The notes beneath the pieces were generated by a model. The model searched no databases and was not told the DNA's origin. It saw nothing but the letters and a program-made list of their open reading frames with translations. A DNA stretch of 64,000 bases from Rosa chinensis. Lineage: Eukaryota; Streptophyta; Magnoliopsida; Rosales; Rosaceae. Below are positions 16,514-64,000 of the stretch, piece after piece. The position numbers were made by a program, and so were the translations under genes. How positions within the stretch are numbered: the stretch's first letter is position 1; the number at the start of each line of letters is the position of its first letter. Location of the stretch: the NCBI RefSeq assembly GCF_002994745.2, contig NC_037090.1, forward strand, positions 10,847,501 through 10,911,500, read 5' to 3'.

Positions 16514-17789
16514 AAACTATTAATAATGTAGACAAATTATAAGTTTTAAGAACATATTATACTATTCTCAAAACAAAACAAAAAAAGAGAACATATTATA
16601 CAATTTATTTCATATATGTGATGCTATTATATCATCATATGCTGATGAAATTGAAACCATGGGAAAAAATTAGCAGAGCCGCCTGTCTCTTTTCCCTCTG
16701 AACTAGGGTTACAGTTTTTCTATGTAAATTTCAACAATGAGTTTTGTTGATGGCGGCTGCTCGCCTTGCTTCCTCTCTTGCTATCGTTGAGGGGAAAAAG
16801 TAGGTCAATTATGCGCTAGGCAGACGTCTTTTTGGTGGGAAAGCTTCTCACCACTCCAGTACAAAGTCAGATCCTTTTCACGTTGCCAGACGCGGCTAAC
16901 AGTGATCGAACTTGGAAGCAAGCCCCGTGGGGTTATAATCATATACCGATAGTCCTAGCCTACTACGGCAGCGTCGCTAATATTGAGTTTGTTCCTTTCA
17001 CTCCATCATCGTATTAGATGACGCTACAAGGCATCCCTCTATCTTTCCGATATGAAAGGGTGGTGACTATGATTAGCTATAGGCCTCATCAAAAAGCTCG
17101 CAGATCAAGTAGGCCGATGGAGGCCCGCCTGCCCTGAGGGCGAAAAGCCCAGCCCGGCCCGTCAAAAAGCCAGTAAAAACCAGATCCAACCCATAGGCCC
17201 GGCTAGCCAAAAGCCCGCTAGGCCCTACCGGTAAAAGCCCGCAAACAAAAAATATTATATAAATAACACAGAAACTATTGTGCAGAATACCTAACTTCGC
17301 TGAATTACTGAGAACTGCTCAAAAGGAATTATGTCACGCCCCTGATTTTACACACATGAAAATCAATATATATAATCTCATAATTATACATGCGTGAACG
17401 TTCAGTCATCAATACAAAATACCTGGAATCTTTTTTCCTTTAAACCAAGTACACACTGATGCCCTGAACCCTCAAAGTTAATATACACTCGCTCCATAGA
17501 GTTATATATTACACAAGCTTACGAATTAAATTGTCAACAACAAAATAAAACGTAAATGCTGCTCAGAGTAACTATACAACGGAAGTCCTTATCAACGGTA
17601 AGGTCACAAAGATAGCTTCCTACCGTAAAGCTGCAAAGGCGCTATCTCAGCTTCAGCCCCGATTATTCTAACCTGTAGGATTAACCCCTACACCGTTTGA
17701 ATAGTGTATCGGGTTGTCACACAACAAACCCGGTAAGCTTTTGCAAGCCCGTATGAGTAACTCAAACCACACACAACTCACGCCAATCA

Positions 17790-18296
17790 CGAGAATAACT
17801 CACATGAATCACGTCTAAATCAATAAATAAAGCACGAGATAAACTCACACGAATCACATTTAAATCAATAAACAAAGCACGAGACAAACTCACACAAATC
17901 ACGTTTAAATCAATAAACAAAGCACGAGATAAACTCACACGTTTAAATCAATAAACAAATCACGTTTCAATCAAGAAAAAAAGCACGGGATAAACCCACA
18001 CAAATCACGTTTAAATCAATAAACAAAGCAAGAGATAAACTCACACGTTTAAATCAATAAACAAATCACGTTTCAATCAAGAAACAAAGCACGGGATAAA
18101 CTCACACAAATCACGAGATAAACTCACACGTTTAAATCAATAAACAAATCACATTTCAATCAAGAAACAAAGCACATGATAAACCCACACAAATCACGAG
18201 ATAAACTCACACGTTTAAATCAATAAACAAATCACGTTTCAATCAAGAAACAAAGCACGGGATAAACCCACACAAATCACGAGATAAACTTACACC
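17790..18296. repeat. Minisatellite inside the solo LTR
   Basis: Recurrent blocks CACGTTTAAATCAATAAACA, CAATCAAGAAACAAAGCACG and GATAAACTCACAC alternate with higher-order periods of about 60-85 bp for some 500 bp. The related LTR at 59417 lacks this array at the corresponding place. Confidence 0.8.
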
Positions 18297-19945
18297 TTGT
18301 TCCCTAAAAATACGTAATGTCATGAGTTATCAATAACCAATTCTCGTTACCCCATGAATTACCTATATGGCAGACAGATTAGAGCTCTAACTGAAAACGT
18401 AACCACTCGTCCGGCCAAAGACGTGATAACCAGATATTTTGCCCAAGGTCATAGACCTTCGATCCTCGGGCCGCACAGTCCCTTGGAGCAAATCATTAAA
18501 GGAGTCACACTGGACCCAAAATGTTACACAAATCGCAACGCATTTGAAAACAATCGAAATCAACATTTCCATAATCATTGTTTTCCGAAAAGCCATAACA
18601 CAGAACAATAAAAAACATCAATTCATGCCTATTGTTTTCATACCCAAATCTCAACGTTTTTCTCAAATCTCAACGCTTTTCAAAACAAATCGAAATCAAT
18701 CATTTCCACAAATCATTTGTTTTCCAAAAGCCACAACCCAAAACAATAAAAAGCATCATTTCATGCATATTGTTTTCATAAATCCACACACCACCAAAAC
18801 ATATATATTTCACGTAAATATATATATATGTAGTCATCCGCTCAGAAATGCCTACTAATACCAACTATAGTTTGCAGTTACTAAATAACTCTCAAAACGA
18901 TATGGTAATCCCGTTCGTAAATGAACTTCGTGAGATTACTCACCTCGAAACTCCCGCTGCGTCTTCAATACAGAACAAAGTAGCCAATCGACAAAATAGC
19001 CATCCAAGGAGTACTACGTCACGTACCTTAGGAATTACAGCTCTGATTTAGTCAATGAAACACAAGGAATAACGTTCGAAACCCTAAATCGAATCAAAAT
19101 TCCCAAAGTGACGCCAATTGAGGCGAAACCACATCCGAGACCTCCCAAAGTCCCCGGAATTCGTCCACGATCAATGTGACCAAACCACAAGTCGATTGGA
19201 CGCTCGAATCCTCACGGATCGAATAAATCGATCGGTATGAAACTGTAAAAATCATAACAATTCCATACGAACTCCAAAATTTGCATATTATATATCGAAA
19301 CGCTCGTATCAACGAGTAGAACATATATAATACCAAAAATAGTTCCTTAAGTGGCTGGAACACCTCCAGAACGCCGCCACAGGAAGTGGAGCACCGCCGC
19401 CGGCCAAAACTCAATATTTCTCAAAACTCCCAACATCAAAAAGCTTCATCTAAGCATGCTTGTGAATTATCATAACTAGGTCAAAGTCAGAAAACAAGCT
19501 TAAATGGTCGAAAACTACCTCACAAGCCGTGAGCGGTAATCCAATCTGAGTTGAATCAAGTTTTACGTGAATCGATCCAAACAACCAACAAGGATCGATC
19601 AAGGAGGTTGCTCTGAGCTCCCCATGCTCAACTTGAAGCCCCGCCGACGTCGGAGATCGGAGAACAGATCGGGTCCGAAAACACTCAACTGCGCCGCCTT
19701 CTACCGCCGCCACCACCGAGAATCGGTGCTAGAGGACACCACAGGGACGACCAGACGGAGAAGACGATCCTATCTGGAAAGTTTCGTCGCCGGAGACCGC
19801 CGCAGTTTGCCGAAAAAGCTGGTCGGGTAGGCCGGGTCCGGGTCGAGTCAGTCGAAAAACTCAGATACTGAAAGTGCAGTCGAGAGAGAAGAAAGCTTTC
19901 CGAAAAAGGAAAGTGAAATTATGAAATGATTTTTCAGAAATTCCC

Positions 19946-19953
19946 TATTTATA
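19946..19953 (-). promoter_or_regulatory. Putative LTR promoter TATA box
   Basis: GGTATAAATAGGG on the minus strand, about 300 bases into the LTR, sits where a retrotransposon U3 promoter would be expected. Confidence 0.4.
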
Positions 19954-20840
19954 CCAAAATGGAAACTTCTTCCAATAGTCATAACTTCTTCATACAAACT
20001 CAAATTGACTCGTTCCATATGTCCACGAACTCGTATAGACGCGCACTACAACTTTTGTGATGGAAGTTTTCAGAGAATCTCAACGTATCAAAAGTCAACC
20101 TTTGCGCCACCCCTAAAGTCATATTTTCTGAATGAAAATTAATCTGAAACACTTCCGCTCATTCCACAAGCCATGAAACCGTCCAATAAACATAAAATTA
20201 ATTCCAGAAAATCTTCAGAAAATAATTACGAATTTTCTGGGTATCACAAATTAGGAGTTGTACCCTATATGTAAGGGAAGCCCCATGTGTCTAGTTTTAG
20301 AGGAATTTTTACGGTTTGCAATTCCGACTATTCTAGAAGGAGTTAAGGTAATTTAAGTGAAGGAACTTAAGCTTGAACGAGAATCTGCAACATAGAAACT
20401 GTTGTGCAGAACACCTAACTTCGCTGAATTACTGGGAACTGCTCTTATGGAATTAAGAGATGTACCCTATATGCACGAAAAGCCCCATGTTTATAGTTTC
20501 TGAGAAATTTAAGGTTTGCGATTCCGACTTTTCTAGAATGAGTTATGGCAATTTAAGTGAAGGCAGTTCTGCTTCGATGTGAATTTGCAACATCTTTTAC
20601 AAGTTCATGTCTAGAACCGAACTTCGCTGAATTACTGGGAGCTGCTCGGATAGAATTAGGAGTTGTACCCTATATGAACGGAAAGCCCCATGTGTCTTGT
20701 TTCTGAAAAATTTTACTGTTTGAGATTCCGACTTTTCTAGAAGAAGTTATGGCAATTTAAGTGAAAGCAGTTCAGCTTTGACAAGAATCTAGAAGGCCCA
20801 TCACATATATTTGGAAATATTCAGTGTGTCACATCATCAT

Positions 20841-36005: not shown

Positions 36006-39000
36006 TTAGCTAAAAATTCCAATGCTTGCTGTATGCTTCTGGAATGCAGCCACTGACAATGCCTTGGTGAAAGGATCTGCTAGCTGTGAATTTGTGTCAA
36101 TACTCAAAACAGCTATTTTACCATGCTTTACTCTTTCTCTTATACAGTAATACTTTAGATCAATATGCTTGGAATTATTTGATCTTTTACTGTTCTTGCT
36201 AAAGAAAATTGCAACCTCATTGTCACAATAAATCACAAGTGTGCCAGCCACAATGTGACTCAATACTTTGGTTTGCATGAGAAAATTCATAATCCAAAGT
36301 CCTTCACACACAGACTCATAAACTGCAATAAATTCAGCTTGCATAGTAGAAGTTGAAACAAGAGTTTGCTTCATGGTTTTCCAAGCAATAGCACCTCCTG
36401 CAAGCATGAACACATATCCACAAGTCGACTTCTTAGAGTCTGAATAATTTCCTGCAAAATCAGAATATGAAAATCCAACAAGTTTCAGATCCTCCACTTG
36501 CCTATACACTAGCATGTAATTCTTGGTTCTCTACAGGTACCTCAACACTTTCTTCCCAGCTACCCAATGCTCATGGCCTGGATTGGATTGAAACCTTGAT
36601 AAAATTCCTTCTGCAAAAGACAAGTCTGGCCTAATGCAGACTTGTGCATACATGAGACTTCCTACAAGTCTAGCATAAGGCTTTGACTCCATATTCTCCT
36701 TTTCAACATCATTATTGGGACTTTCCTTCTTGGTTAACTTATTTCCTTTAGACATGGGAACTTCTCCAGCTGCACACTTCTCCATACCAAATCTCTTTAA
36801 AATTTTGGTAACATAATTCTGTTGAGACAAACCAAGTAGTCTGTGTGCCCTATCTCTTTTAATTTCAATACCTAGTACATAGGATGCTTCTCCTAAGTCT
36901 TTCATATCAAAATTCTTTGACAAAAAATTCTTAGTGTCTTTGAGCAGTTTTAGGTTACTGCTAGCCAAGAGTATATCATCCACATAGAGAACTAGGAAAA
37001 TAAAATTGTTCCCAACTGTCTTCAAATAAACACACTCATCAACAAGATTTTCTGTAAATATAAAAGTAGAAATCACATAATCAAATTTCTTGTACCACTG
37101 TCTAGAAGCTTGTTTTAGGCCATAAATTGATTTTCTTAACTTACACACTAATTTTTTACTTCCAGCTTGTACAAATCCTTCTGGCTGCCTCATAAAAATC
37201 ACTTCATCTAGTTCACCATTCAAGAAGGTTGTTTTAACATCCATATGGTGCAGCTCCATATCAAAATGAGTCACTAAAGCCATGATTATCCTAAACGAGT
37301 CTTTTGGACTGGAGAAAAAGTCTCAGTAAAGTCAATGCCCTCCTTCTGTGTAAAACGCTTGGCAACTAATCTTGCTTTATGTCCCTCTACATTGCCATTT
37401 GCCTCTCTTTTGGTTTTGAAAACCCATTTACAACCTATAAGCTTCTGGTTGGGGTCAGGTTCAACTAATTCCCAAACTGCATGTTGACTCATGGAATTAA
37501 TTTATGCTTCCATTGCTAGCTACCATTGATGAGATTCACTACTTTCAATGGCCTGATTAAATGTAGTTGGATCATTGTCCTCTGCACAGTCCATTTCAAT
37601 TTCTGCTTCTTGCATATAAACAATGTAGTCACTCTCTTCCCCCCTATAAGTTGGTTTTCTTGCTCTCTGTGATCTTCTAGGCTGAGGATGTTCAGGATTA
37701 GGTTGAGCTACATGTACTTGATCAGTTATGTGGTTAGTTACTTGACCAGTTACAGTTACTTGGTCAGTTACGTGGTTTGTTACTTGACCAGTTACAGTTA
37801 CTTGACCAGTTACAGGTACTTGATCAATTACTTGACCAGATACAGCTACTTGATCAGTTACTTGTTCAGTTACTCGACCAGTGACTTGATCAGTTACATA
37901 TTGTTCTAAAGGCAATACTACACTTATATTCTCATCTGACATAATTTCCTCAAAATCTTAGGTTAAATCCTCAAGGTTTGTATTGTGAACTTTTTCACTT
38001 AGAAACTTTACTTGATATGTTTCAAAAATTCTAGGTGAATGATGAGTAGAATATAATTTATAGCTTTTAGATTTATCTGGATAACCTATAAAATTCTAGG
38101 ACACCTGTTAAAGTGCTAGTACTGTTAGTGTTATTTTCAACAAGTAAAATTTCTTGTTGAGCCATTGAACAATTTTACTGTAAATAATCATTCATAATAA
38201 CACCAGAACCAATTTGAACAGAATTTTTAGAAATAAGAATTCCATTACTATCCATAACAAGTCTATAACCAGATTTTACTAAAACTGAAACTGAAACCAA
38301 ATTCCTTCTCATGGAAGGTGCATAAAAAACATTGTCCAGAACTAATAATTTTCCTAATCCTAAATCGAGCTTTAAGGTTCCAATAGCCTTGACTGCCACT
38401 CTCATGCCATTGCCCACACACAGGTTCACTTCATCACTTTTTGGGATTCTCCTCCTTATGAATCCCTGCAAGGAATTAGTAATATGAATAGGTGAGCCTG
38501 AATCTATCCACCAAGACTGTGGTTCAACATTTATAAGATTAATTTCTAAGGAAAAAACTGTATTAGAAAAAATCTTACCCTTTTTGGCTAACCAATTTTT
38601 ATAGCCAGTGCAGTCCTTTTTCATGTGTCATACTCTTTTGCAAAAGTAACACTTGAACCTAAACGGTCTGTTTTCCTTGGCCACTGCAGCTGTTGAACTC
38701 ATAGTTATGGCTTTGGTAGGCTTGAGCTTGTTTTGGGACATTTTTCTTTTAGGCTTCTCTATGAGGTTTATGGCTGTAGCAAGTTCATTTTCTTCTTTGA
38801 TCCTAGCTTCTTCATCCACACAGATGGATATGAGTTCATCTAAAGTCCAGTTTCCCTTTTGAGAGTTGTAACTGGTCCTAAGATGACTAAAACTGTTATG
38901 GAAGGAATGTAGTGCATAATGCACCACCTGCTCATCCCTAACCCTCATCAAGAGCTCCCTGAGTTTGACATTTATATTGATCATCTCCATAATATGCTCT

Positions 39001-39374: not shown

Positions 39375-39822
39375 GTAAGAGTTACTTAAGCAGCAAAACA
39401 AAATTCATGTGAGTTCTCAATTTGTAAATAAAATAACTTTAAGTTTTCTGTGTTTTATTATGCTTTTAGCAATCAAAACAAGAACAGTTCAAGAAAAACA
39501 ATGCAAGAAAAGTTCATACAGAAAACCTAATCATCCATACTTGCATTCATGTCAGTCCATAACCAAAAATAAAAGCAACACTTTTGAGTAGAAGCATAAC
39601 ATCCTGGAGTTCTTTATCAATATGCCATGTTCAATGAAAACAAGTTATCCAAAGAAATTTATCCACATCTTTAGACAGAAGAAAAATTTCTAAGTATCCG
39701 TATTTATTTTCATCAAGCATGCATACTGTTGTTTTGTATTCTAAAACCATACTTGACCACTTCTTTGGAAGATAAAACTGAAGCACAGTTTTAAAACACA
39801 AAACACAATTTCAGTTTTGTTA

Positions 39823-40666
39823 CTCGATCAGGTACAGTTACTTGATCAGTTACTTGGTCAGTTACTTGACCAGTTACTTGGTCAGGTACCTGATCAGTGT
39901 TTTCTGCCAACATCAATGAAGAATGCTTTGTGCATCATAATCACTTATGCCAACAGAAAACCACAAAACTGATGAGCTTTTAACTTTATATTCTACCCAG
40001 ATTCATCCTTGTAAGAAAATTAAGCTCTTGTATCTGTCAACTTTAATAATGTGTAAACAATTTATGGGAGACTTTTGTTCTTCATGCAATTTTACACAAT
40101 CACAGATACAATACCATATCATCAATCAATTCATCATGCATATTCAAGTACAATCAAAATTGTTTCGATTCCAAGAAACCACAGAACAATCAAGAAATTG
40201 TAAATTTCATCCGGTCACCATCTACTCTAGCCTAACGCACGCCGGGAATGCAACCAGGATTCTTGAGCAAAATCAAAAACTTAATTATCATGCTATGAAT
40301 TGAAAACAATTTTCACAGAAAAACCTGTTTTTGCTTTTTCCCCAATTTGCTGCAAAAAATCTCAGCGGAAGCGTGAATTAGATAATCAGATGCAACAATC
40401 AACTTTATTGGCTTCTTGATTCACAGCAGTTGGGATTTTGAATCCCTCCTCGAGATGAAAACATCTCGCGCGTTTCCGAATCCAGTCCCAGACCTTCATC
40501 TTGATCAAAACTGACCGTTGTGATACAACAGTCACCTGTTCTTCATGTTTTGGTCGGGTTTGGGCTTGGATAGTCTGCGTGCTGTAACTGGGCCTTCAGC
40601 AATTAACTTACCTTGATCAGGTACCTGATCAGTTACTTGGTCAGTTACCTGCTCAGTTACTTGACC
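39823..40666 (-). repeat. Same short repeat in copia B leader, two clusters
   Basis: Clusters at 39823-39897 and 40610-40666 contain runs of CAGTTACTTG(A/G)(T/C) units identical in style to those in the coding linker, separated by about 700 bp of unexplained leader sequence. They lie between the primer site and gag. Confidence 0.85.
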
Positions 40667-40697: not shown

Positions 40698-41321
40698 GGG
40701 AGAAATATCATTTTGGTCATCGAACTATGGCTCGCTCGACACTTTGGTCATGCAACTTTTAAAAAATTCATTTTGGTCATCGAACTATATCACCGTATAT
40801 CACTTTGGTCATTCCGTCAGTTTTCTCTGTTAACTCCAGGGGTATTTTGGAGATGAAATGTTTTACCCGCCATTTTTATAACTTAATCCAATTTTCCCCG
40901 CCTAAACATAAAACTCCATCCAATTTTGCCAACTTTTCCTTCCTTTTATTCATGCATTCATCATCAATAATCAAAGCATGCAACAAAGAAAAATATTCGA
41001 GTCAGAGAATGATTCAAAGTGAGGGAATATAAGAGGAAGAAAAATATTGATTTAATAAATTGAGGAATTATAAAAGGAGGGAAAAGTTGGCAAAATTGGT
41101 TGAAGTTTTATGTTCAGGCGGGAAAAGTTGGATTAACTTATAAAAATGGCGAGTAAACCTTTAAATCTCCAAAATACCCTTGGAGTTAACAGAGAAAACA
41201 GACAGAATGACCAAAGTGATATGTGATGATATAGTTCGATGACCAAAATGAAGTTTTTAAAAGTTGGATGACCAAAGTGTCGAGCGAGCCATAATTCGAT
41301 GAATAAAGTGATATTTCTGCC
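40698..41321. mobile_element. Mutator-like foldback MITE, 624 bp
   Basis: Nearly the whole element is an inverted repeat (arms near 290 bp; ends GGGAGAAATATC and GGCAGAAATATC; shared GGCTCGCTCGACACTTTGGT). A 9-bp duplication TTTTATTTT lies at 40689-40697 and 41322-41330. It sits in the copia B leader. Confidence 0.9.
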
Positions 41322-41348
41322 TTTTATTTTTTATGTTTGTTTTGCAAA

Positions 41349-41862
41349 GGGAAAATTTCGCAAACAGTACACCAAGTAAAGACCACTAATAACTGCTATA
41401 CACAAAGTTTCAAACCAAACATTTCGGTACACGAAATCTGAAACTCGACCCACTATCAGTACACGACGTCAATTTTTGACACCAAAATGTCTATTATGCC
41501 CTCAGTTCTTTTTTTTTTAATAATTTTTTTTTCTGTTATTTTTTTTCCTTCGTTTATAAATGACTCGAGTCATTTTTTTTCTGTTAAGCCAGGTGAGGAA
41601 GGCGGCGTTGGAAGCGAGGGAGTGAGCCCGGAAGAAGGAAGAAGAAAGAGATAAAACGAAGGAAAAAAAATTAACAGAAAAAAAAATTATTAAAAAAAAA
41701 AAGAACTGAGGGCATAATGGACATTTTGGTGTCAAAAATTGACATCGTGTACTGATAGTGGGTCGAGTTTCAGATTTCATGTACCGAAATGTTTGGTTTG
41801 AAACTTTGTGTATAAGAATTATTAGTGGCATTTACTTGGTATACTGTTTACGAAATTTACCC
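41349..41862. mobile_element. Mutator-like foldback MITE, 514 bp
   Basis: Ends GGGAAAATTTCGCAAACAGT and, inverted, GGGTAAATTTCGTAAACAGT. Arms share GTGTACTGATAGTGGGTCGA. An exact 9-bp duplication TTTTGCAAA lies at 41340-41348 and 41863-41871. It is inserted only 27 bp from the preceding element. Confidence 0.9.
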
Positions 41863-44696: not shown

Positions 44697-44810
44697 GTTT
44701 ATAAAAGTTTTTAAAATAAAAAATCTAATTGCCTTTCAATTATATCAAACAAATAGATAATTTTAGAGAAAATTAACATTATACTATTGGTTTGAATTCT
44801 GCAAATAAGT
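42692..44810. other. Spacer, no gene seen
   Basis: AT-rich, with simple repeats: 14 G at 42783-42796, an AAT microsatellite at about 43338-43389, 24 A near 43828-43851 and a TA run at about 44657-44693. At 44185-44196 TGGTATCAGGGC resembles an LTR-element primer site, but no LTR or gag was recognised beside it. Confidence 0.5.
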
Positions 44811-44985
44811 AATGCTAGATAAATCATATTTTCAGGTACCACATGCATCCCACTTTATGTGGCGGTTGATGTGGTATTAAACTCAAACTATTACATAATT
44901 TCATTAAATGACCTGACTGTGCTACATCAGCTGCCACATAAGGTGGAAACATGTGGTATTCAAAAGTGTGCTCCACCTAGCATTA
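44811..44985. mobile_element. MITE, about 175 bp
   Basis: Inverted ends AATGCTAG / CTAGCATT and internal inverted blocks (ACCACATG, CTTTATGTGGCGGTTGATG against CAGCTGCCACATAAGG). The target duplication is not resolved. Confidence 0.6.
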
Positions 44986-45834
44986 TTCTTCGGCAAAATA
45001 CTTCAAATAGCCAATTCCGAATTACAATCATTTCTTTGATCTATAAGTATCATACAGAAGAATATCTTATTGTCAAACAAAAAAACACTCTACTTTAAAG
45101 AAATAAGACGTTAATGTTTTTTGTCAGCAAAAAGAATTCAAGTTATAAAAGATGAAAATGCTTATGGTGGTAAAAATTATAATTAAACACTGCTTAGCCT
45201 ACTCTAAAGAGTTTACCTACCATTATTCTTCGGCAAAATACTCCAAATAGCCAATTCCGAACCACAGCCGTTTCTTTGATCTACAAGTATCAAAAAGAAG
45301 AAATATCTTATTGTCCCAAAAAAAAAAATTACTCTACTTTAATGGTGCGTTTGGATGAGAAAATTATGAAATCCATAGGAATTTATAAATGATGGAATCT
45401 TTAACTCCATCAATCTAAAATTCCATTAATTGCAATTTCTGTTGTTTGGTTGTAACCATTTAGGATTTCAAATGTGTAATAAATTAAGAGAGTTTAAAAC
45501 AAATAAAAAAATAAAAAAAACCTTGTTTTGGAAATAAAAATTGAATACTGCAAGGGAATTCGTAAATGACACCTATTTTGGTGGAAATTGAAGTGGGAAA
45601 TTTAAATGATGAATTCCTTCGTTTTTTGCCACAGAGAAATTTAAAATTTCTAGTTTGATAATGCCAAACGAGAGAATTAGCTTGTAGGAATTATGAAATC
45701 CTCACTTTCAATTAAATTCTATCATATTTTCTCTCATCCAAACACACTCTTAGTAAATTTTTGTCAGCAAAAAAGAGTTCAAGTTATAAAAGATGAAAAC
45801 GCTTATGGGGGTAAATAATTAAACACTGCTTACC
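44977..45834. repeat. Tandem duplication, about 240-bp unit, second copy split by MITE
   Basis: Copy 1 is 44977-45207. Copy 2 starts at 45219 and resumes after the MITE at 45754-45834. Shared blocks are ATTATTCTTCGGCAAAATAC, CAAATAGCCAATTCCGAA and AGTTATAAAAGATGAAAA. Copy 1 lacks the 45342-45753 element, showing that it inserted after the duplication. Confidence 0.85.
45342..45753. mobile_element. MITE, about 410 bp (GTGCGTTTGGATGAGA ends)
   Basis: Left end GGTGCGTTTGGATGAGA and right end, inverted, AGTGTGTTTGGATGAGA. The duplication may be TAA, as in PIF/Harbinger elements, but this is not certain. It is absent from the sister copy of the surrounding duplication. Confidence 0.7.
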
Positions 45835-47704: not shown

Positions 47705-50700
47705 ATTCAAACCAGGAACCATTGCTTCCACTTGATCATATATCTCACTTGATTTGAAGCTCTGAAACCACGGTGCCAATTATGTTGGTGGGTCACCGGT
47801 CTTCTTCCACTCATTATTGCTAAACGCGGAGATGAAGCTGGATTTGGCGTCCTATATATTTCTAGCTATCTGAACCACCATATTTTACGTAGTACTGAAA
47901 ACATTGATAGCTAAAGCAAGCAAGGTGCGTATTGCGACAGATTCTCGATTATTTGGGACTAGTTATTGCAATTCATGATTATGGTACGTACTCCTGAAAT
48001 TTTCCAACTTTGTAATTTGGTCCCTCCAAAATTCAATGTTGACGTATACGGCTCCTATTAAATGTAGGATGTCAATAGTTACTATACATTGAGTGTTACA
48101 GCACAAAAATGTATACAAGCAAAACAGTATTTGAAAATGAGGATGTATGTATGTACAAGAAATGTTATTTGTATATCCTTAATTAGGTGACCTTATAAAG
48201 CGATCAGTGTTCAGTTCATGTGGCAAGTCATGTTGTAGTGTTTTAACATCTATCATCCCATTATAGTAATTGAATCTAAACAAGTATATGTGACTAAAAT
48301 AAAAATGTGATTATTTTCCACTAAACTATATATGCTCCAACCTCAGATTGTTAGTGAAGATCAAATATTATGAAATTGCGCCAAAAAAAAAAAATTTCAC
48401 AACGTTATAATATACTCCAAAACAAGATTCGTAGGTGAGATGAATTATCCGAAGATGAGATAAGTTTTGATCAGTAGTTATTCCATACGTTAAACTAGCT
48501 TTTACACTCCTTGCATGTAGGTCTTTTTCTACCATCATCGTCCAACGATTCTATAGCTTAAATGTAAAATTCAGAATTTCTAGCTTTGTTGATACCGCTG
48601 ATTAAAGTTTCTCAATGTAGACGCTGCGTTTGACTAATAGGAGAGGGTAAGCTAGTCAGAAGAAGTGAACTCTTGCAGACATGAAATATATCGAAAGGAG
48701 GTAATAAAAAGGCGTTAGATTAGGAGAATTGTTGATTCTGGAATGCTCAACTTTATGCGAACACAGGCATGTGAGTGAAGGTGTCGGGGATCGTGACATG
48801 GTATTAGAGGTAAGCTAGAGCACTTGAATTAATTTATATATGCATTTCGTGTGTGAGAGGGATCGATCGAGATGAGAGTGAGAGGAGCTTAAGTTGCGTT
48901 TGGCCCTCGTTCCACGCCGAAAAAGAGGCTGCCAAAATTGGATTAGCTTCGAGTGCTTCCTTCTTCTTAATTCATATCATATTAGTGAGAGAGACTGAGA
49001 TATTTGGTATGTGGCCAGAGATAGTTTTCCAGAGGGTTCAGTGTTTCTTGTTCTGAGACCATGTGGGACTCTAGCTCCACTTGCTTTTGAATTTGATTTT
49101 CTCAGCTTAATTCTTAATCTAAACTACTCCAAGCTGATAACCTTTTTCATTTACAATCTAAGCTCCACATGTTGGTGGTATCTATTTTAGTTAGAACAGA
49201 TCTGACAGCAAATTAAGACATAAATTATTCATGATCGAAACCTGCTATGCCAGACTAACAGAAAAACCGTTGGGGTTTATATAAAATTCGGACCAGGATC
49301 ATGGGTATGTTTACAGTCAGATTGAGCTCTTAATTAATTCTAGCTCTCTGATCTAGCTGATAATAATATGATTAACAAATTGATCTTAAACATGATTAGC
49401 TAATTAGACTAATTATTAATACGGAGCTACGTAGTCCATTAAACCTTAATGATGAAACTAACGTGCATGGATAAGTTCATATATATTGAGGAAATCCCTT
49501 AAATGCATCGTGATCTGCAAAAAGAAGTAAAGCTTTGTTCAACTATGAAATACTTGCGCGCGCGTGTGTGAGTGTGTATGTGTGTGTATATATATATATA
49601 TATATATGATAATCTACAGTACATTAATGTACCGATACATCAAGTAGATTAGTTCAATACAGATGTAAACTAACTCAGTACATGGGTAGACATGCATGGA
49701 GTTAGAAAAAATAATAAGTTTTAGTTATATATATATATAAATACTAAAACTTATATATATATATATATATAACTAAAACTTATTATTTTTTCAATTCCAT
49801 GAGAGAAAATTATTATACCAAAATTGAATGGTATTTCTTTTGCCAATTGTGAAATGAGATTATGGGTTTAAATTCTCTTTCTCCAAAAAAAATAAAAAAA
49901 ATCTCCAACTCTTTGGCAGGTGGGAATAAGAATTACAAGAAACAATAGTAGCAGGGAGAAAATATCTATCATTATAACAAAATTGATCAATCGTGAAAGA
50001 ATATATACAATTGTACACATGAAGCTACGTACGTACTTAGACAGTCTCAAGTCAAATATCCACTTGCATATATACAGTAATTCCGCTCATCTGATCTGAA
50101 AATTATTTAAGCACAGAAACTTGGATTGAACAGTCATTAACGTACATAATTAATTTGACTACTTGATACAAATGCTACATATATAACAAGTATGCAGACG
50201 CCACCTTTTTACCCATGTGGCCAAGTTCTCTGAAATGCATCTCGCCGAGCTTGTGCCACCTACAAGTTGCATCCATAGTGGTTAACTAGTTGTGGTCGTT
50301 AACTTGGATACCAAAAACTAGGACGATCGGAAGCTGATGATGAATAGGTTTTCATAATCCCAGATTCCCAGCTCTATATATATGAACTAGTAGTCTAGTA
50401 CTCAATAACGGCGGCGGAGTCAAAGAAGTAAGTTGTCTACATGGCAACCTGAATAGTACGATAAGACTCGCAAGGGTTGACAATTCTATTTCAGCAAATT
50501 CCTCACGAATTAAAGGGAGAAAAGCAAAGGGAGTCGGGCATTAAGTCACATCAGCCCTGTTTCTCTCTTAGTAATATATAGTTGGAATCAAAACAATGGC
50601 CTAAATTTTTATTTTTAAAGTAGGTGATCGTGTATGTGTTTATGAAGTATATATATGATGGTGGAGATAATTAAGGTCGAACTCTTTGGTTAAATAAAAT

Positions 50701-56208: not shown

Positions 56209-58307
56209 TGAAATTGTCACTAGATTACATGGCCCTAAATACGAATTAGCCTTGATGAATAGTCTGTAATAAATGAATTCATCTCTTCAAATCAAATATC
56301 AAGTTACAAATAAGAATAAATATTAACTTTATATTGTTGCTCTATTTCCATTTCCAAACAGCTTAAAGAGATAGCACCAGAAAAATATCTTAGGCAACTA
56401 GCAAGCATAGTTTTGCATTGGCTAACAACAATAGGGGAACGTGGCCTGTTTTGCATTTTAGAGAAATAAAATGAAGATTTAAAGTGTTCGCTGCCTCCAA
56501 CCCAAGTTGTTTTTCTTTGTCTTCCCACTACCATTTGCCTCCTTTCAGTTTCTAATGCAGCCTAGATTGTGGCAGACATCCAGAAACCCATAGGGGAGTC
56601 ACCTTAGAATTTGGGAACACAAAAAAGAATCCAAGCAGAGGGGTCAACAACAAAAAAACTGCATGGTGGAGAATCCAACCACATTTCAACATCTTTTGCA
56701 TAATTGGGTCACTTATCCTTTCTTTGTAGTGAATCAATAAGAGACTAATAAGTTGTGAATTCAAATTAATACATAAAGGTGGAAGACATTTCCCTCCATT
56801 TGACGAATCTAGTTGAAGTTCCATTTTGGGCTCCTTTGAAGTAGTTTTGATTGTTGGGCTCTTCATAGATTTTTCTTTATTGTGATGGGCCTTTATAATT
56901 TTGGTCTTTAACAAACGTACAAAAAAGCATTTCTTCATGTAGGTGTGCTGAAGTCCACTATGTATATTGTAGGTTGCAATCTCTCAGCTTGTTTAGGGGC
57001 CTGAATTTTTGGGACTATTACGTGAATAATGAATTGTTTTGGGTTACAATTCCTGGTTCTTGAATTCTTAGTGTTATAAGTTCTTAGGGATTTGAGATTA
57101 GTGTTTGTAATGAATAATAATATAGTGTTGTAATAAAAAATTAACAAATTACCACTACCTATACTTTTAGTCCATAAATTACCATCAGCAAGCCTGTTTT
57201 TTTTTTTTAAATTTCTATGCGCTAGTGCACAAGGCCCGTGCGCAAGGTCTAATACCTGCGGCAGATTCCTTCCGTTTTTGAATAATTTCTATTGACAAGT
57301 AAATTATGAAATTGTCCTTGTGGTTTGGATAATGTGAATTAACACTGCTAAATGTCAGTAGCATTATGAAGAAATAATATTCCATTCCATCCTTGTTTTT
57401 CTTAGAAACAACTCATTTATTTAATAATCTCAAAAACTATTTATACATATTATAATATGAAACTTAAACACTATATCATTTATCTCTGGGTTTGCTGCTT
57501 TCACATATAAGTTGCTTTGAATTTCACCTATTCTCATGGTGACAAAATTTCTCCAGCAGGATTTCCTGATGTGCTTGAGGCTCTCTTTGATTTCCTTTCA
57601 ATTTGTAGCACATTGTTTGCGTAAACACTTATATCATTGACTCCTTGGTTATTTGCAACTTGTTGTATGTATGTATGTATGCTCCACAGACAAACTACAA
57701 AATGATAGAGAAATCTAAGTGAAGGTATTCATTTAGTTAAAGCTACTGACATTCAGTAAGGTAAGTAAAAAGAAATCTTACAGATACATTGCTGCAAGCA
57801 TATTACATATAGTAGCAAATTAACATTGCGTCCTCTTCTTTTATTGCAGCAGCCTTCCTCTTTGTCGTTGCGATTAATCTAAGTATATGATATGTGAATA
57901 TATGAGTATTGCTAAAAACTAAAATTAGACCTTCAGTAGAACATCTTTATGAGCACTGACCCTTAGTAGCTTACATATGAAAGTCACATGTTATGTATTT
58001 ACACAATATGCAGTATAAAGAATAGGATTGTAAGGAGATCAAATGATGCATCCCACATTTTCAAAGCAATGAATTATATAAATGCTAGAAACCAACATCT
58101 TTAAGAAAATTCTGAAGCTATTAAAACACACCTTAGTAGGGTACTGACCCTCAAAAGCTAAATCAGTTCCACTCAAATATGAACTCTAATGTTGACCACA
58201 AAGGAACCAAGATATTAAGTGCACATATGTTAAACGAAACAATTTGAACTCTTCCATTTTATCAAGGAAAAGAAGAATACTGACCCTCAAGACCACATTG
58301 CACATTT
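56209..58307. other. Spacer, no gene recognised
   Basis: AT-rich. A 128-codon minus-strand frame at 56552-56938 has two hydrophobic patches but no recognisable domain or splice context, and I do not call it a gene. TGTATGTATG repeats occur near 57665-57680. Confidence 0.4.
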
Positions 58308-58660
58308 GAATGCTACTGACCAGCAAAACTCAGGTTTTACTCACTCCAAATAGATTGTTGCTACTCAATCATCACTAGTTTTAACTACAATTGAAATTTT
58401 AATGCTACTACCCTCAAAACTCAGGTTTTGCTCTAGCCAAATAGGCTACTACTACTTAATTCTCACTAGCTTGAACTGCAATTGAAATTTTAATGCTATT
58501 GACCTTCAAAATGATGTCCTCAAGCCAAAGAGGCTACTGCTACTCAATTCTTACAAGCTTTAACCGAAGTTGAAATTTTAATGCTACGTACTGACCCTCA
58601 AAACTCAGGTTTTACTCGAGCCAAATAGGCTACTGCTACTCAATCCTTACCAGCTTTAAC
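58308..58660. repeat. Tandem repeat, about 91 bp x 4
   Basis: Units contain AATTTTAATGCTACT, CTCAAAACTCAGGTTTT, AGCCAAATAGGCTACT and AGCTTTAAC. Units begin near 58311, 58403, 58494 and 58581. The array is cut by the hAT-like end at 58661. Confidence 0.8.
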
Positions 58661-59416
58661 TAGGCTTGGACTTGGGTCGGGCCGGGCCTGAAATTTGGTG
58701 AGACCGAGACCGAGCCCGAAACAATCGGTCCGGGCCGGTTCGGGTTTTTTTCAAAAATGGAAACCGACAGAAACCGACCCCAAACGGGCAGGTTATGTCT
58801 TCGGGCTTTTCGGGCCCAAATCCAGTTTCCCAGCTTTATGCAAAATACACACAAAATTGGGTCAGAGGCGGGGTTTGAACCCTTGACCTCCTACACGAAA
58901 GCTTTGCTCCCAACCACTGGAGCACGAGACACTCTTGGTATAATTTGTCCAAAGTTTATATTTATTTGATCCTAGGCGGGAGAAATGAAACAAAACAAAA
59001 CCTAGAATTGTAGAACCCTCTTTCACTTTCTGCTCTCTCTCTTTTCTAGCCGTATTCTTCTCTTCTTCTTCGTTTTTTTTCTTTCTTTCTCTTTTCTTCC
59101 TCCCCAATCCCCATTAATCCATTAGTTCTCTTTATTTACCATATCTTCTTCTTCTTCTTCTTCGGCGACTTCGATCTACTCCGCTCCGAGCTTCAAGCTG
59201 ATCAGGAGGCCATCAAGAAAAAAAAATTTGCAAGTGAAGGAGTTTCTCGGCTTCACTGGTTCCCAAGGTAAGATTACTCAAAGCAACAACTTTCTCTGTG
59301 TTCCCATGCCCTATGCTTAAATTTTAATACTTTGGTTTCTTCTGAAATTCTGCACATTTGAGTATGGAGAAGAAGGAGGAGGAGCTGGCTTGGGAGGAGA
59401 GCTTTGAGAGGCTGAG
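58661..59416. mobile_element. Left part of a hAT-like element
   Basis: Starts TAGGCTTGGACTTGGGTCGG followed by GGCCGGGCC and other C/G-rich words, as in the hAT element at 17080. The right end was not found; the LTR at 59417 interrupts it and it presumably continues past the window. It contains a tRNA-like module and a gene-like piece (59140-59340, with CCCAAG then GTAAGA as a splice donor near 59269). Confidence 0.5.
58861..58935 (-). other. tRNA-like module (A and B box)
   Basis: On the minus strand GCTC-CAGTGGTTGG-GAGC forms a D-arm-like hairpin containing an A-box match. AGGGTTCAAACCCC downstream is a strong B box. Acceptor and anticodon stems do not pair, so it is a tRNA-derived SINE head or relic, not a functional tRNA. 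Confidence 0.45.
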
Positions 59417-59721
59417 TGTCACGCCCCTGATTTTACACACATGAAAATCGATATATAATCTCATAATTATACATGCGTGAACGTCCAGTCATCAATACAA
59501 ATACCTGGAACATCTTTATCTTCAAACAAGTACTTACTGATGCACTGAACCATCCAAGTTAATATACACTCGCTCCACAGAGTTATGTATTACACAAATT
59601 TACGAATTAAATTGTCATCACAAAATAAAACGTAAATGCTCCTCAGAGCTTACTACATAGCGGAAGTCATATACTAGCAAAGCCAACAAAATTTGCTTCC
59701 TACCCGTTCTGCTGCCAACAA

Positions 59722-62223
59722 TGACAGGACCCGACCCAGGAATCACCCCAATTACCTGGATACGAGCTTGCGGGGCCCATGTTAAGCGAAATCCTACCGA
59801 AAATTCGACAGAACCTCCCCTAAAAATGGGCTACCCAAAAGTTTCACAAACCTGGACATGATTACAACTATAACTTCTACTCAACCTACAATATCAAATT
59901 TACAATCCAAGCACATATATTACATCCGGAAAGTTCAAATCCCAACATAATCCTCCTAGCAGCAACAACCCAAATAACAACATCCATCAAACTTAAAAGA
60001 AAAGGTTTATCAGAGTAACACTAAACTAAGCCGATATCATACAAGGTAGGTTAAGTAATAACCTACGGACAAAAACGGAAGCGCTGATTTCCAAAGTCCT
60101 TGAGTCTGGACACGATCTCGGCTAATCTGTAATCTGGGCATTTGAAAACGAAGGGCCCAGGGGAAAACATATAAAATCCATTAGAGTGAGTGGACAAAAC
60201 CGAAACGAGAATCAAAACAATTTATGGTATGCTTCCCCATTTCTCTTTTTAACAAAACCATCATGCAGCTAAACCCTTTGAAGTTCCAACTCAATCCTTT
60301 TCCAAGAAACTCATTTGATGACTAGGAAGGACTGCTTCCTAGGCATCTCATGCCATCGGGGAGTGACTGCCACCCGATGACGCATCGGAAGGGATTGCCA
60401 ACCGGAGTAGGAGGCGGTGATTAGTTGGGACTGCCAACTAGCCACATGTAGTAGACGGGACTGCCGACTAACTACCTCAAGTCATCTGGAAGGGACTGCC
60501 AACCAGATGACGCATCGGATGAGACTGCCAACCGAGCTGTAGTCTGGACGGGACTGCCGACCAGACTATTACCTAGAAGGACTGCCAACTAGGTAAGATA
60601 CGCATGCGCCAAAACTGGCCTCCTTGTCAACTGTTTCCTTTTTAATCATTTTCTTTCCATGAAATCACATTTACTCAAATAACAATCCATTTCGAAATTT
60701 AATACCATGCTGCATGCATTATTTAAATAAAATAAAGATCCACTCACAAGTGAGTCCAGCAGCTAACCCTGCTGCCTGCCTGTGTCCTCCTCGCTCGAGG
60801 GCTCAGTACGTCCTGTCACAATTGCATATGGTATAATTAACCATAATAAAAAAATACTCTAAAAAACAACTCATTTCCCTCGGAATAGGCATCCGTTGTT
60901 CATAAATGGTTATAAAACTCCCACACTTAAATTCGGAATTAAATTCTATACTTCCTTACAATCTCAATGCCCTCTAACTCATACTACTCAACCGATTTTT
61001 AATTCGATTTCTCAACCGTTCAAAGACTTCACTTAATCTAAACCTTCACAAGAACCGTTCGATAACTTAATCAATTTAATCTCACTTCCTTCATCACAAA
61101 TTACCACCAATTTATAATATAAATCCTTTCCAAAAATTTCCACATTCATTCTTAATTTTTCCCCTTTTCAAGTTCACAAATTCAACTCCAACAATCTCAA
61201 ATTCTCTCTACTTCCTAACAACAATTCATAATAGCCCTTTTTCCAAGAGTTTTCACCCAACACTACAAACATGACAAAACCATCAACCATGTTCAACATC
61301 ACAAACCAAAGAAAACTCAATATCCAACAAACCTCAAGTTTAACACAAACTCAAAGATTAAAACCGATACCAAACAACCTATCTATTCCAAAATCCACTC
61401 CACAACACACCCAACCAATTCTAAACCTGCAACAGTCAACAATTTCCAACAAAACAACCCTCACAAACAGTTAACTAGCTTAAAAACAACTCAATAATCT
61501 TCAACCCTGCAACAATAGCTGAAACTAGGCAGAGAGGGTCGAAAATTCAACCCAAATCGGAAAATAAAACCCGACCGCCACTGTTCATCAACCCTACCAC
61601 CTCCTCCGGCCAAATCAAGCTACAAGGAGGTTGATAAAGTGTTCCATCCTTCCCAGCGACCCAAAAGCACAAGGATTTCCGGCCGGAGACTGCCGGAAAT
61701 CGGAAACCCAACCGAGGTTATCAAACCCGACGGCACCCCTCCCCCAAAATCAAACAAATCCGGGCTACCCAGTAAAAAGCACTTACCTGAGATGACAGAG
61801 AATGAGGAGAGGAGGCTGTGGTGGCTGGAGACGAGCCCAACGACATCCGGAGGTGGGGAATTGGCCGGAATTTTGGTTCCGGGTGCGCAGAGAAGGAAAG
61901 AAGAGAAAGCAAAAACAGGGGGGGTCGATATCGGGTTCTCCCGATCTCTCTCTCTCTCTCTCCTTTTTTTATAATCCTATTTCCCTTTTCTTTAAACAAA
62001 ACCAATAATTTTAAAGGAAAAAAAATACCTTAGACACTTAAATCATAACTTCCCCGTAAAAACTCCAATCGAAACAAACTTCGTATCCAAAAACTCGATT
62101 TTTTTTTTTAATCTACGACAATCTCCAAGAAATTTCCTAATTTACCGGACTAAAGAAAAGTCACTTTTCGGTCAACCACAGTAAAAAGTAACTAGTAAAA
62201 ACTTTAAGGTACGGGGCATTACA
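59722..62223 (-). mobile_element. Solo LTR, 2502 bp, different family
   Basis: Minus-strand termini TGTAATGCCCCGTACC and GGGTCGGGTCCTGTCA. An exact 5-bp duplication AACAA lies at 59717-59721 and 62224-62228. No internal retrotransposon sequence is present. A TATAAAA on the minus strand near 61964-61974 may be its promoter. It contains the stem-loop array at 60322-60595. Confidence 0.85.
60322..60595. repeat. Array of nine stem-loops with constant GACTG loop
   Basis: Consecutive units of about 20-30 bp each form a palindrome around (G)GGACTGCC. Stems seen are CTAGGAAG (60322-60342), CATCGGG (60354-60379), TAGTTGG (60422-60440), TAGACGG with one mismatch (60452-60470), TCATCTGG (60482-60510), TAGTCTGGACGG with one mismatch (60540-60568) and TACCTAG with a mismatched inner part (60570-60595). 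Two further units (near 60383 and 60513) pair weakly. Stem sequences differ between units while each stays self-complementary. Confidence 0.85.
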
Positions 62224-62669
62224 AACAAGCTACCTCAGGTTCAACCACGATTTCCCTGACCTGCAGGATTAACCCCTACACCGTTTGAATGGTGCACCGG
62301 GGTTGCCAAACAACAAATCCGGTAAGCTTTTGCAAGCCCGTATGAGTAACTCATGAACATCAATCTACTTAAGGAACACATGCAACCATGATTCCTTCTA
62401 ACATTCCATATCCTTTCACCGAAAGGACAACATGAGTCACCGCTGTGACAATGTTCTATTTGCTAACTTAACCATCAAGTAGCAATTCAAGTCTCATCTA
62501 GACAGTTAAAGAAGAATACCATCGGAACTCTCCTTTAAACTACATACCTATAAGTCTCCAGCAACCTCGACCGTTACTCCCATAAGCTATCATGGCAGAC
62601 AGGCTATAGCTCTGTTGAAATCGTAACCACTCGTCCGGATACAGATGTGATTACCTATTTCCTGTCTTG

Positions 62670-62905
62670 GTCACCATCTGCGACCTGTCACCATCTATGA
62701 CATGTGGTTTCAGACCCAGTCTGGTCTCAAAATCAACATTAAGGTCACCATCTGTGCCTTGTCACCATCCGTGACACATGATCTTCAGACCCCATTTGGT
62801 CATGAAATCAACATCAAGGTCACCGTCTGCAACCTATCACTATCTGTGATCCATCACCATCTGTGACATAAGATCTTCTTAGACCCTATTTGGTCTTAAG
62901 GTCAA
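62670..62905. repeat. Minisatellite in LTR copy 2, about 80 bp x 3
   Basis: Repeated CACCATCTGTGAC, ATGATCTTCAGACCC, TTTGGTC and AATCAACAT-AAGGTCACC blocks. It is absent from the sister LTR at 17332, which has a different minisatellite instead. Confidence 0.75.
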
Positions 62906-64000
62906 TGTTAAGTAAGTCGCATCCGACCTAAAAACGTTACAAATATCTAGTTTCGGCTTTCCTAATCCATGCTCACCATCTGTGACCCTTGGTACAAAGA
63001 CCAATACATCTAAAATGAGTCACGCTTGACTCAAAAATGTAACATCAAGCTCAATACTTTTCAAACAATATAAAACATCTTTTTGCACAATATTGTTTCC
63101 TGAAAAGTCACATTCAACAATAATATGAACACCATCATGCATATTATTATTCATCACAATCATCCACAAGGATATATATATTTCATGTAAATATATATAT
63201 ACGTAGTCATTCACTCAGGAATGCCTACTAATACCAACTATAGTTTGCAGTTAATTAATTAACGCCAAAACGATAATGGTAATTCTGTTCATAAAGAACC
63301 TTGTGAGATTACTGACCTCGAAACTCCTGCTGTGTTTTCAATGCAGAATAAGTAGTCAAACCACAGAATAAACGTCGAAATACTTCGTCAAGTACCTAAT
63401 CACATACGGTTTCCACTTAGTAAAGATTCACATTTGATTTAAGTCTGAAACCCTTGTTTTGAACTAAAATCCCCAAAGAGGCGCCAATCGAGGCAAAACC
63501 ACATCCGAGACCTCCCAAAGTCTCCGGAATACGTCCACGATCGATGTGACCAAACCACAAGTCGATCGGACGCTCGAATCCTCACGGATCAAATAAATCG
63601 ATCGGTATGAAACTACAAAAATCATAACAAATCCATTCGAACTCTAAAATTTGCATATTATATATCAAAACGCTCGTATCAACAAGTAGAATATGTATAA
63701 TACCAAAAAAGTTCCTTACATGACCGGAAAGCCACCAGAAAGCCACCACAGACGGTGGTGCACCTCCGCCGGCCAAAACTCAATATTTCACAAAACTCCC
63801 AACATAAAAAAGCTTCATCTAAGCATGCTTGTGAATTCTCATAACTAGCTCGAAGTCAGAAAATAAGCATAAAGGGTCGAAAACTACCTCACAAGCTTTG
63901 GATTTTTGCTCAATCCGAGTTGAACCGATTTCCACGTAAATCGATCGAAACAAACACCATAAATCGATCAAGGAGCCTCCCACGAACCCAAAGATGGAAG

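Follow-up and report, generated by a model that had tools for sequence, protein, structure and literature searches.

Retroviral packaging signals (psi) are built from several stem-loops bearing like loops. To our knowledge, little has been established about how RNA is marked for packaging in plant LTR retrotransposons, and the mobilisation of non-autonomous families depends on such marking. Clustered, palindromic repeated motifs (RM) have been described in the LTRs of Sireviruses, which belong to the Ty1/copia superfamily; according to the excerpts available of Bousios et al. (2010; PMC2829016), RM copies within an element are 66.5–100% identical (mostly above 85%), share a CGG-CCG core and form a cluster located upstream of the promoter region. 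Work from 2016 on maize Sireviruses, as described in the excerpts of PMC10760457, also concerns palindromes that form a hairpin cluster in the LTR. On the excerpts of PMC2829016, the Sirevirus RM is the closest published relative found for the array reported here, which lies in a 64-kb stretch of Rosa chinensis DNA (hereafter the window, meaning the whole stretch analysed). An earlier note on this DNA stated that no known feature class explains the array, which is too strong because the Sirevirus palindromic repeat clusters described in those excerpts had been published. Among the open-licence papers listed, judged by titles and the starts of abstracts, none describes an array of this kind for a gypsy element; searches with the letters of the motif returned only unrelated topics at the same level, and PMC10578108, in the excerpts available, was not relevant to the array.

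As the earlier note had proposed, the array sits inside an LTR, and this LTR is a solo copy nested in the LTR of another family (Table 1). Self-comparison of the window showed that the 59.7–62.2 kb segment is missing from the homologous LTR at 17332, and the inserted segment starts with TG, ends with CA and carries AACAA on both flanks. Absence from the relative, the TG..CA ends and the target duplication together identify a nested solo LTR; for the same reasons, a wider set of LTR borders, 59417–62223, was rejected. No array was found in the outer LTR. A DUF247 gene, a LINE-like endonuclease and fragments of copia RT mark the window as plant DNA. Three separate arrays, at 37715–37897, 39835–39898 and 40608–40664, are built of the 12-bp unit CAGTTACTTGAT and variants of it, and the relative of the outer LTR at 17332–20790 contains an array of 45-bp units with related periods (17788–18295) and a 203-bp tandem repeat (20249–20790).

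Table 1. Features of the solo LTR, its stem-loop array and its surroundings (window coordinates).
Feature	Position	Strand	Remarks
Array of nine stem-loops	60316..60596	-	LTR positions 1628-1908
Unit U1	60569..60596	-	Stem TTACCTAG/CTAGGTAA; right arm one C shorter than in copy L184
Unit U2	60540..60568	-	Stem TAGTCTGG/CCAGACTA
Unit U3	60511..60539	-	Weak stem; TC 3' of the loop, CC in copy L184
Unit U4	60480..60512	-	Stem GTCATCTGG/CCAGATGAC
Unit U5	60446..60478	-	Stem interrupted by one bulge
Unit U6	60416..60446	-	Window copy without U·U
Unit U7	60382..60412	-	Weak stem; loop CAATC here, CAGTC in copy L184
Unit U8	60353..60381	-	One pair is G-C in 32, T-A in 5 and G·T in 3 of 40 copies
Unit U9	60316..60349	-	Window copy without U·U
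Solo LTR, 2502 bp, of a Ty3/gypsy chromovirus	59722..62223	-	Starts TGTAATGCCCC, ends GGGTCCTGTCA, in its own sense
Target-site duplication AACAA, left	59717..59721		
Target-site duplication AACAA, right	62224..62228		
TATA-like box TATAAAA	61967..61973	-	LTR position 251; function putative
CAG/GTAAGT splice-donor-like site	61781..61789	-	LTR position 435; function putative
Island of 73 nt, 89% identical in family A and B LTRs	60127..60199	-	
LTR 3' end, 74% identical in families A and B	59722..59840	-	
Outer LTR of another family, carrying the inserted solo LTR	59417..63975		Block homology to 17332-19606; far end not seen

The nine stem-loops counted in the earlier note are indeed present, arranged head to tail with 28–36 nt between neighbouring cores. 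Read as sense RNA, a typical unit has the form stem / U·U mismatch / GG-CAGUC-CC / U·U / stem, that is, an outer helix, two mismatched pyrimidines, GG, the CAGUC loop, CC, two mismatched pyrimidines and the other strand of the outer helix. The fixed centre that had been described holds for GACTG, which is exact in eight of the nine units (GATTG in the remaining one), but not for the full GGGACTGCC, which is exact in only four. Stems are good in seven units and weak in U3 and U7 (-8.5 and -6.1 kcal/mol). The fourth pair is U·U in five units; U6 and U9 are paired at this position, U8 is shifted and U1 lacks one base. Two parts of the array, 60329–60404 and 60458–60534, are 78% identical and resemble a block duplication.

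Chance can be excluded as the origin of the hairpins, since the array contains six non-overlapping hairpins with perfect arms of at least 7 nt, and 1000 dinucleotide shuffles averaged 0.17 and never exceeded 3. All 15 of the listed best 280-nt hairpin windows in the 64 kb overlap the array. Folding of both strands, which the earlier note had advised, gave z-scores of -7.0 (plus) and -6.3 (minus). Low folding energy alone is not distinctive in the window, because blocks at 39.6, 40.9–41.7, 44.8 and 49.6–49.9 kb fall further below their own shuffles than the array does. The strongest foldback blocks (39621–40040, 40881–41720, 44801–45080 and 49561–49980) are perhaps MITEs. Within the LTR, other parts also fold below their shuffles (z of -4.3 at the 3' end and -3.3 at LTR positions 2051–2200, with the array reaching -4.1). 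A covariance model built from the nine units recovered six of them in the window at E <= 1 and matched nothing beyond them there, and Rfam 15 gave no covariance-model match at E <= 1 on either strand of 58000–64000.

The arms differ from unit to unit (mean column identity 62%), and the claim that they nonetheless stay complementary to each other stands for the array as a whole, although not for the weak stems of U3 and U7. Mean hairpin energy over the nine units is -11.4 kcal/mol with each unit's own arms and -4.9 kcal/mol with other pairings; only one of 200,000 random permutations of the arms paired as well as the real arrangement, and that one may be the true pairing itself. A unit's own right arm is the best partner for seven of the nine left arms. 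With longer arms, 5 of 100,000 permutations did as well, and with the outer arms alone 33 of 100,000, the own arm then being best in five of nine units. Aligned, the nine units show changes on both sides at 10 of 12 pair positions, a count that 12 of 500 shuffles attain, and 21 further pair types, attained by 40 of 500, with a covariation score of 0.433 against 0.244 +/- 0.033 in shuffles, none of 500 scoring as high, and 0.206 for the best version with slid partners. Against these shuffled and slid controls, which do not model phylogeny, the array behaves as a structured RNA with compensatory evolution.

A DNA search of the 515-Mb assembly, in which the window is C3:10847501-10911500, returned 1259 candidates, of which 40 copies, the window's included, were scored; they are 92–100% identical, and each has 8 or 9 exact GCAGTC cores. 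With site classes set by the hairpins of copy L184, the rate of minority bases rises from 1.0% (loops) through 2.0% (stems) to 3.7% at other array sites and 3.9% in flanks; after stratification by base class, 7 of 20,000 permutations gave a difference between stem plus loop and spacer plus flank as extreme as this. Among the pair cells of the 40 copies, 3493 are unchanged, 58 remain paired despite a one-sided change, 5 are changed on both sides, 73 are unpaired and 11 are gapped. The both-sided cells all belong to a single pair of U8 (Table 1). One-sided changes break pairing in 72 cells and keep it in 58, and the unpaired cells indicate that copies decay as well.

Beyond these copies, two GGCAGTCCC cores 12–40 nt apart occur 2332 + 2412 times in the genome (4,744), against 0 + 2 for the reversed control. 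Twenty further arrays, all on C1, were read at the places that head the list of occurrences, and 7–12 units were detected in each, some arrays being clipped at their ends. Together with the 40 copies they make up 60 arrays; these hold 550 unit instances, of which 203 are distinct. The covariation score over the 203 units is 0.159, above the maximum of 0.061 in 300 shuffles and above slid partners (0.02–0.05), these controls taking no account of phylogeny. The loop is exactly CAGTC in 176 distinct units, U·U stands at the fourth pair in 148 and at the third in 110, and 17 have the C-G third pair that a CGG-CCG core would require. One array (L279) has C·C at the third pair and U·U at the fourth in most units, and cores of its type, GGCAGTCCCCTC, form 247 adjacent pairs in the genome, with none in the control. 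Among the units seen at least twice there are five different, fully Watson-Crick outer helices of 8 bp: TTACCTAG, TAGTCTGG, TCATCTGG and GTAGTTAG, with their complements, sit on GG-CAGUC-CC with U·U as the fourth pair, and the fifth, ATGACTAG, sits on AG-CAGUC-CU. About 18% of stem cells are unpaired in the 50 units seen at least twice, the third and fourth pairs excluded. G·U (30) is not clearly above A·C (27) in these 50 units, so wobble pairs leave unsettled which strand is read.

Several further observations concern these copies. The first unit of L269 and the second unit of L271 look chimeric, with the left arm of one class and the right arm of the next; such units, whose stems do not match, may reflect array contraction through recombination between cores. 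On C43, three same-strand arrays (112113, 119389 and 126666) lie 7.28 kb apart, a spacing that suggests a tandem LTR-internal-LTR-internal-LTR arrangement. When one minus frame of the array was translated and searched against proteins, it matched two "hypothetical proteins" of Rosa chinensis (P0001 and P0002), which read as translations of other, non-coding array copies and are therefore probably spurious genes; two further translated frames had no protein match. Pattern scans for relatives outside rose found none in viral contigs and none among the matches listed for genome contigs; two candidates (L001 and L002) look unrelated on reading, the loci gathered had no blastn match to the LTR at E <= 0.01, and plasmids and phages gave no match.

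How the covariation arose can be addressed by comparing units at different distances. The earlier note raised an unusual replication product or a palindrome-making mechanism as one explanation, and template switching during reverse transcription or replication, copying one arm to the other, would indeed yield functionless palindromes with changing yet complementary arms. Such copying would, however, be expected to erase the U·U mismatch, which 148 of the 203 distinct units retain at one and the same position; stems and loops are also less variable than spacers and flanks. Moreover, among unit pairs differing at exactly two arm sites, the two changes fall on partner sites in 20 of 466 against 20.3 expected, and none of the 20 is compensated. 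This chance-level outcome gives no sign of mutational coupling between the arms, and the lack of compensation between near-identical units makes a palindrome-making mutation unlikely; we regard template switching as very improbable.

Deeper comparisons differ from the shallow ones. The 50 units recorded two or more times may include both LTRs of one element, and pairs of them are non-independent. Among these pairs, partner-site changes show no clear excess at two, three and four differences (1, 1 and 5, with 1.3, 2.7 and 3.3 expected), and rise to 17 and 48 at five and six differences (7.6 and 20.7 expected); standard pairs are retained in 53 of these 65. Changes of recent date, most of them in dead copies, appear unconstrained, and the deeper differences may be taken to reflect slow compensatory evolution in active elements. 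Drift of the arms without compensation, which had been named as the outcome that would count against structure, is therefore what near-identical units show, but the deeper differences are compensated above chance. Selection on active elements fits the covariation better than a palindrome-making mutation does. The recent, mostly dead copies provide a built-in neutral control for the deeper differences, which are under constraint, and the thousands of hairpin units in one genome clearly exemplify compensatory evolution among paralogues in nature.

The sense of the LTR and the class of the element were read from a complete relative on C1 (family A), whose LTR ends are like those of the solo LTR and whose target duplication is CTAGG. 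Its primer-binding site (PBS), TGGTATCAGAGC, begins two bases past the 5' LTR and is presumably of the initiator-Met type, and its polypurine tract (PPT), AAGGAGGGGAGAT, directly adjoins the 3' LTR. The element, examined in pieces, encodes a CCHC zinc knuckle, RVP_2, RVT_1 with RNase H, and Integrase_H2C2; the last is above its cut-off, rve, at 23.9 bits, falls short of its cut-off (32.6), and the terminal chromodomain (Chromo, 25.2) just exceeds its own (25.1). The order is protease, reverse transcriptase with RNase H, integrase, chromodomain and then PPT. These features together fix both the LTR sense, which is the window's minus strand, and the class: with every defining feature found in this one element, family A is assigned by its predicted domains to the Ty3/gypsy chromoviruses.

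In this sense, the LTR presents in order a TATA-like box, a CAG/GTAAGT site (the sole [AC]AGGT[AG]AGT match on either LTR strand) and, about 1.35 kb downstream of the box, the array. Because of this order, the array is probably transcribed, within a leader part of the LTR, if transcription starts near the TATA-like box. From 60924 to 61523 (minus sense) the leader has 1–7% C, 25–34% G and 31–45% T per 100 nt, and the array follows it as a C-rich island (25–34% C). The structured-RNA reading offered in the earlier note gains from the fixed loop, the U·U fourth pair in most units and the covarying stems, as well as from the sense-strand place downstream of the TATA-like box and the fewer substitutions in stems and loops. 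It is conceivable that such a structure would act at a host or nuclear step, such as splicing control, export, stability or leader translation, instead of in packaging by Gag. A C-poor, intron-like leader in which the array comes after both the TATA-like box and the CAG/GTAAGT site would suit this role, and its occurrence in an autonomous and an apparently non-autonomous family (see below) would be expected of any RNA-level signal; the splice and promoter sites are, however, consensus matches only, and we consider a host-step signal a rather doubtful though serious alternative.

Position also bears on whether the hairpins are DNA-level palindromes, that is, cis-regulatory transcription factor sites of the kind proposed for Sirevirus LTR motifs. 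By analogy this has some appeal: in the excerpts of PMC2829016, motif-bearing Sirevirus elements carry 8 to 32 palindromic copies in the LTR and linker, and one consensus includes GGCAGTGCC. In the rose units, however, the arms vary and a non-palindromic centre is fixed, the opposite of a dimer site; the TATA-like box precedes the array instead of following it; and a position-fixed mismatch makes little sense in double-stranded DNA. Binding sites of this kind are thus an unlikely explanation. A further suggestion, again by analogy and argued for maize Sirevirus palindromes, is that the array might chiefly be a source of small RNAs or a silencing trigger. With the threshold of -40 kcal/mol per 110 nt taken from the excerpts of PMC10760457, 26 of 479 110-nt windows of the LTR fall below it, 19 of them over the array. 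The lowest-energy window, however, lies at the LTR 3' end and not at the array, and a silencing trigger would be expected to be lost, not conserved. Stems of 8–13 bp with internal mismatches, such as these, are moreover short for Dicer-like enzymes, and we hold this to be the least probable of the alternatives.

The sharing of the array between families is more informative about its possible role. The 5' flanks divide the 20 further arrays into 6 that are window-like and 14 in another cluster, possibly of several families; the 3' flanks join all 20 (19 of them with enough flank) and the window in one cluster, with matches of 70–77 nt between some of them. A second family (family B) is represented by an element on C1 with LTRs 99.9% identical in the pieces compared, a CTGTG duplication, a PBS-like TGGTATCAAAGC, the PPT AAGGTGGGGAGAT and an array of 10 units. 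Its LTR aligns to that of family A only at the array, a 73-nt island and the 3' end (Table 1), and the 1.8 kb of LTR 5' of the array had no blastn match to family A. The first 172 nt past the LTR, PBS included, are 82–83% identical to family A, and the 36 nt before the 3' LTR are 97% identical. Within-piece reading of its 3.3-kb internal part, in three pieces, found no ORF longer than 117 aa, and the element, on this evidence, looks non-autonomous and recently moved. About 100 nt past the LTR, in both families, GCCCGACTGCAGC (L224, L280, L282 and L284) includes GACTGC, the complement of the loop GCAGTC; this would allow pairing between loop and leader, and as a 6-mer inside a conserved block it is weak evidence.

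What families A and B have in common, as judged from this one family B element, is thus the LTR end, the PBS leader, the PPT and the array, which are the parts that a passenger element needs. The interpretation of the array as a signal to the element's machinery rests chiefly on this sharing. The linking 3' flanks mean that the array is not the sole shared part, and its presence in both families could stem from LTR-LTR recombination.

From these data we propose that paralogous RNA stem-loops make up the array, in the LTR leader of a chromovirus, and that they are kept by selection and bound by Gag for packaging or dimerisation, a sequence-based reading that we consider evenly poised between right and wrong. 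A typical unit presents a CAGUC loop on two closing G-C pairs and a pyrimidine mismatch zone, mostly U·U at the fourth pair, and its outer helix tolerates nearly any sequence provided that pairing holds. The units would have arisen by duplication, singly or in blocks. Selection on active master elements would preserve the helices as their sequences drift, giving rise to covariation, and the decay of dead copies would go uncompensated. Folded in the cellular RNA on different stems, seven to twelve like motifs could then form a multivalent landing site, and the differing stems may recombine less readily than exact repeats. The element's own Gag, with its encoded CCHC zinc knuckle, would bind the array, so that genomic RNA is chosen for packaging or dimerisation. 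Gag appears the likeliest binder, given that the array persists, along with other cis signals, in an apparently non-autonomous family; we accordingly infer that the array acts in cis as a multivalent RNA signal, with packaging by Gag as its most likely role.

A bolder version, offered tentatively and with clearly less confidence, is that like loop motifs in tandem, on stems of scrambled sequence, constitute a multivalent code for packaging or assembly in plant LTR retrotransposons, which the autonomous family's Gag would read and which the non-autonomous family, little of whose LTR is otherwise alignable, would exploit. If so, scrambling would allow many copies of one binding site to be held with fewer lost to recombination between repeats. 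The chimeric units in some arrays and the weak outer stems of unit classes U3 and U7 count against the proposed explanation. In either version, a compact, repeated RNA motif, examined here through its evolution, yields an exact binding hypothesis: a CAGUC loop, two G-C pairs and U·U.

Placed beside known systems, as far as the excerpts of PMC2829016 describe them, the rose array resembles the Sirevirus RM in having at least eight clustered, short, dyad-symmetric motifs with a short unpaired centre in a plant LTR. Unlike the RM, it belongs to a Ty3/gypsy chromovirus and not to a Ty1/copia element; its arms differ and covary around a fixed GG-CAGUC-CC centre with a mostly U·U mismatch, in place of near-identical copies with a CGG-CCG core; and it is found downstream of the TATA-like box (a consensus match), not upstream of a promoter region. 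As superfamily, the make-up of the motif copies and position all differ, the rose array is not a Sirevirus RM, although it may share a structured nature with it. To the maize Sirevirus palindromes, as the excerpts of PMC10760457 present them, the likeness is that of an LTR hairpin cluster that passes the same energy threshold, set in another superfamily and with another motif. The retroviral psi, for its part, also comprises several shared-loop hairpins in the RNA leader of a retroelement. The rose array differs from it in its 7–12 tandem units with paralogous stems, and homology to psi is not claimed; its retention in an apparently non-autonomous element would nevertheless fit a packaging signal of the retroviral type.
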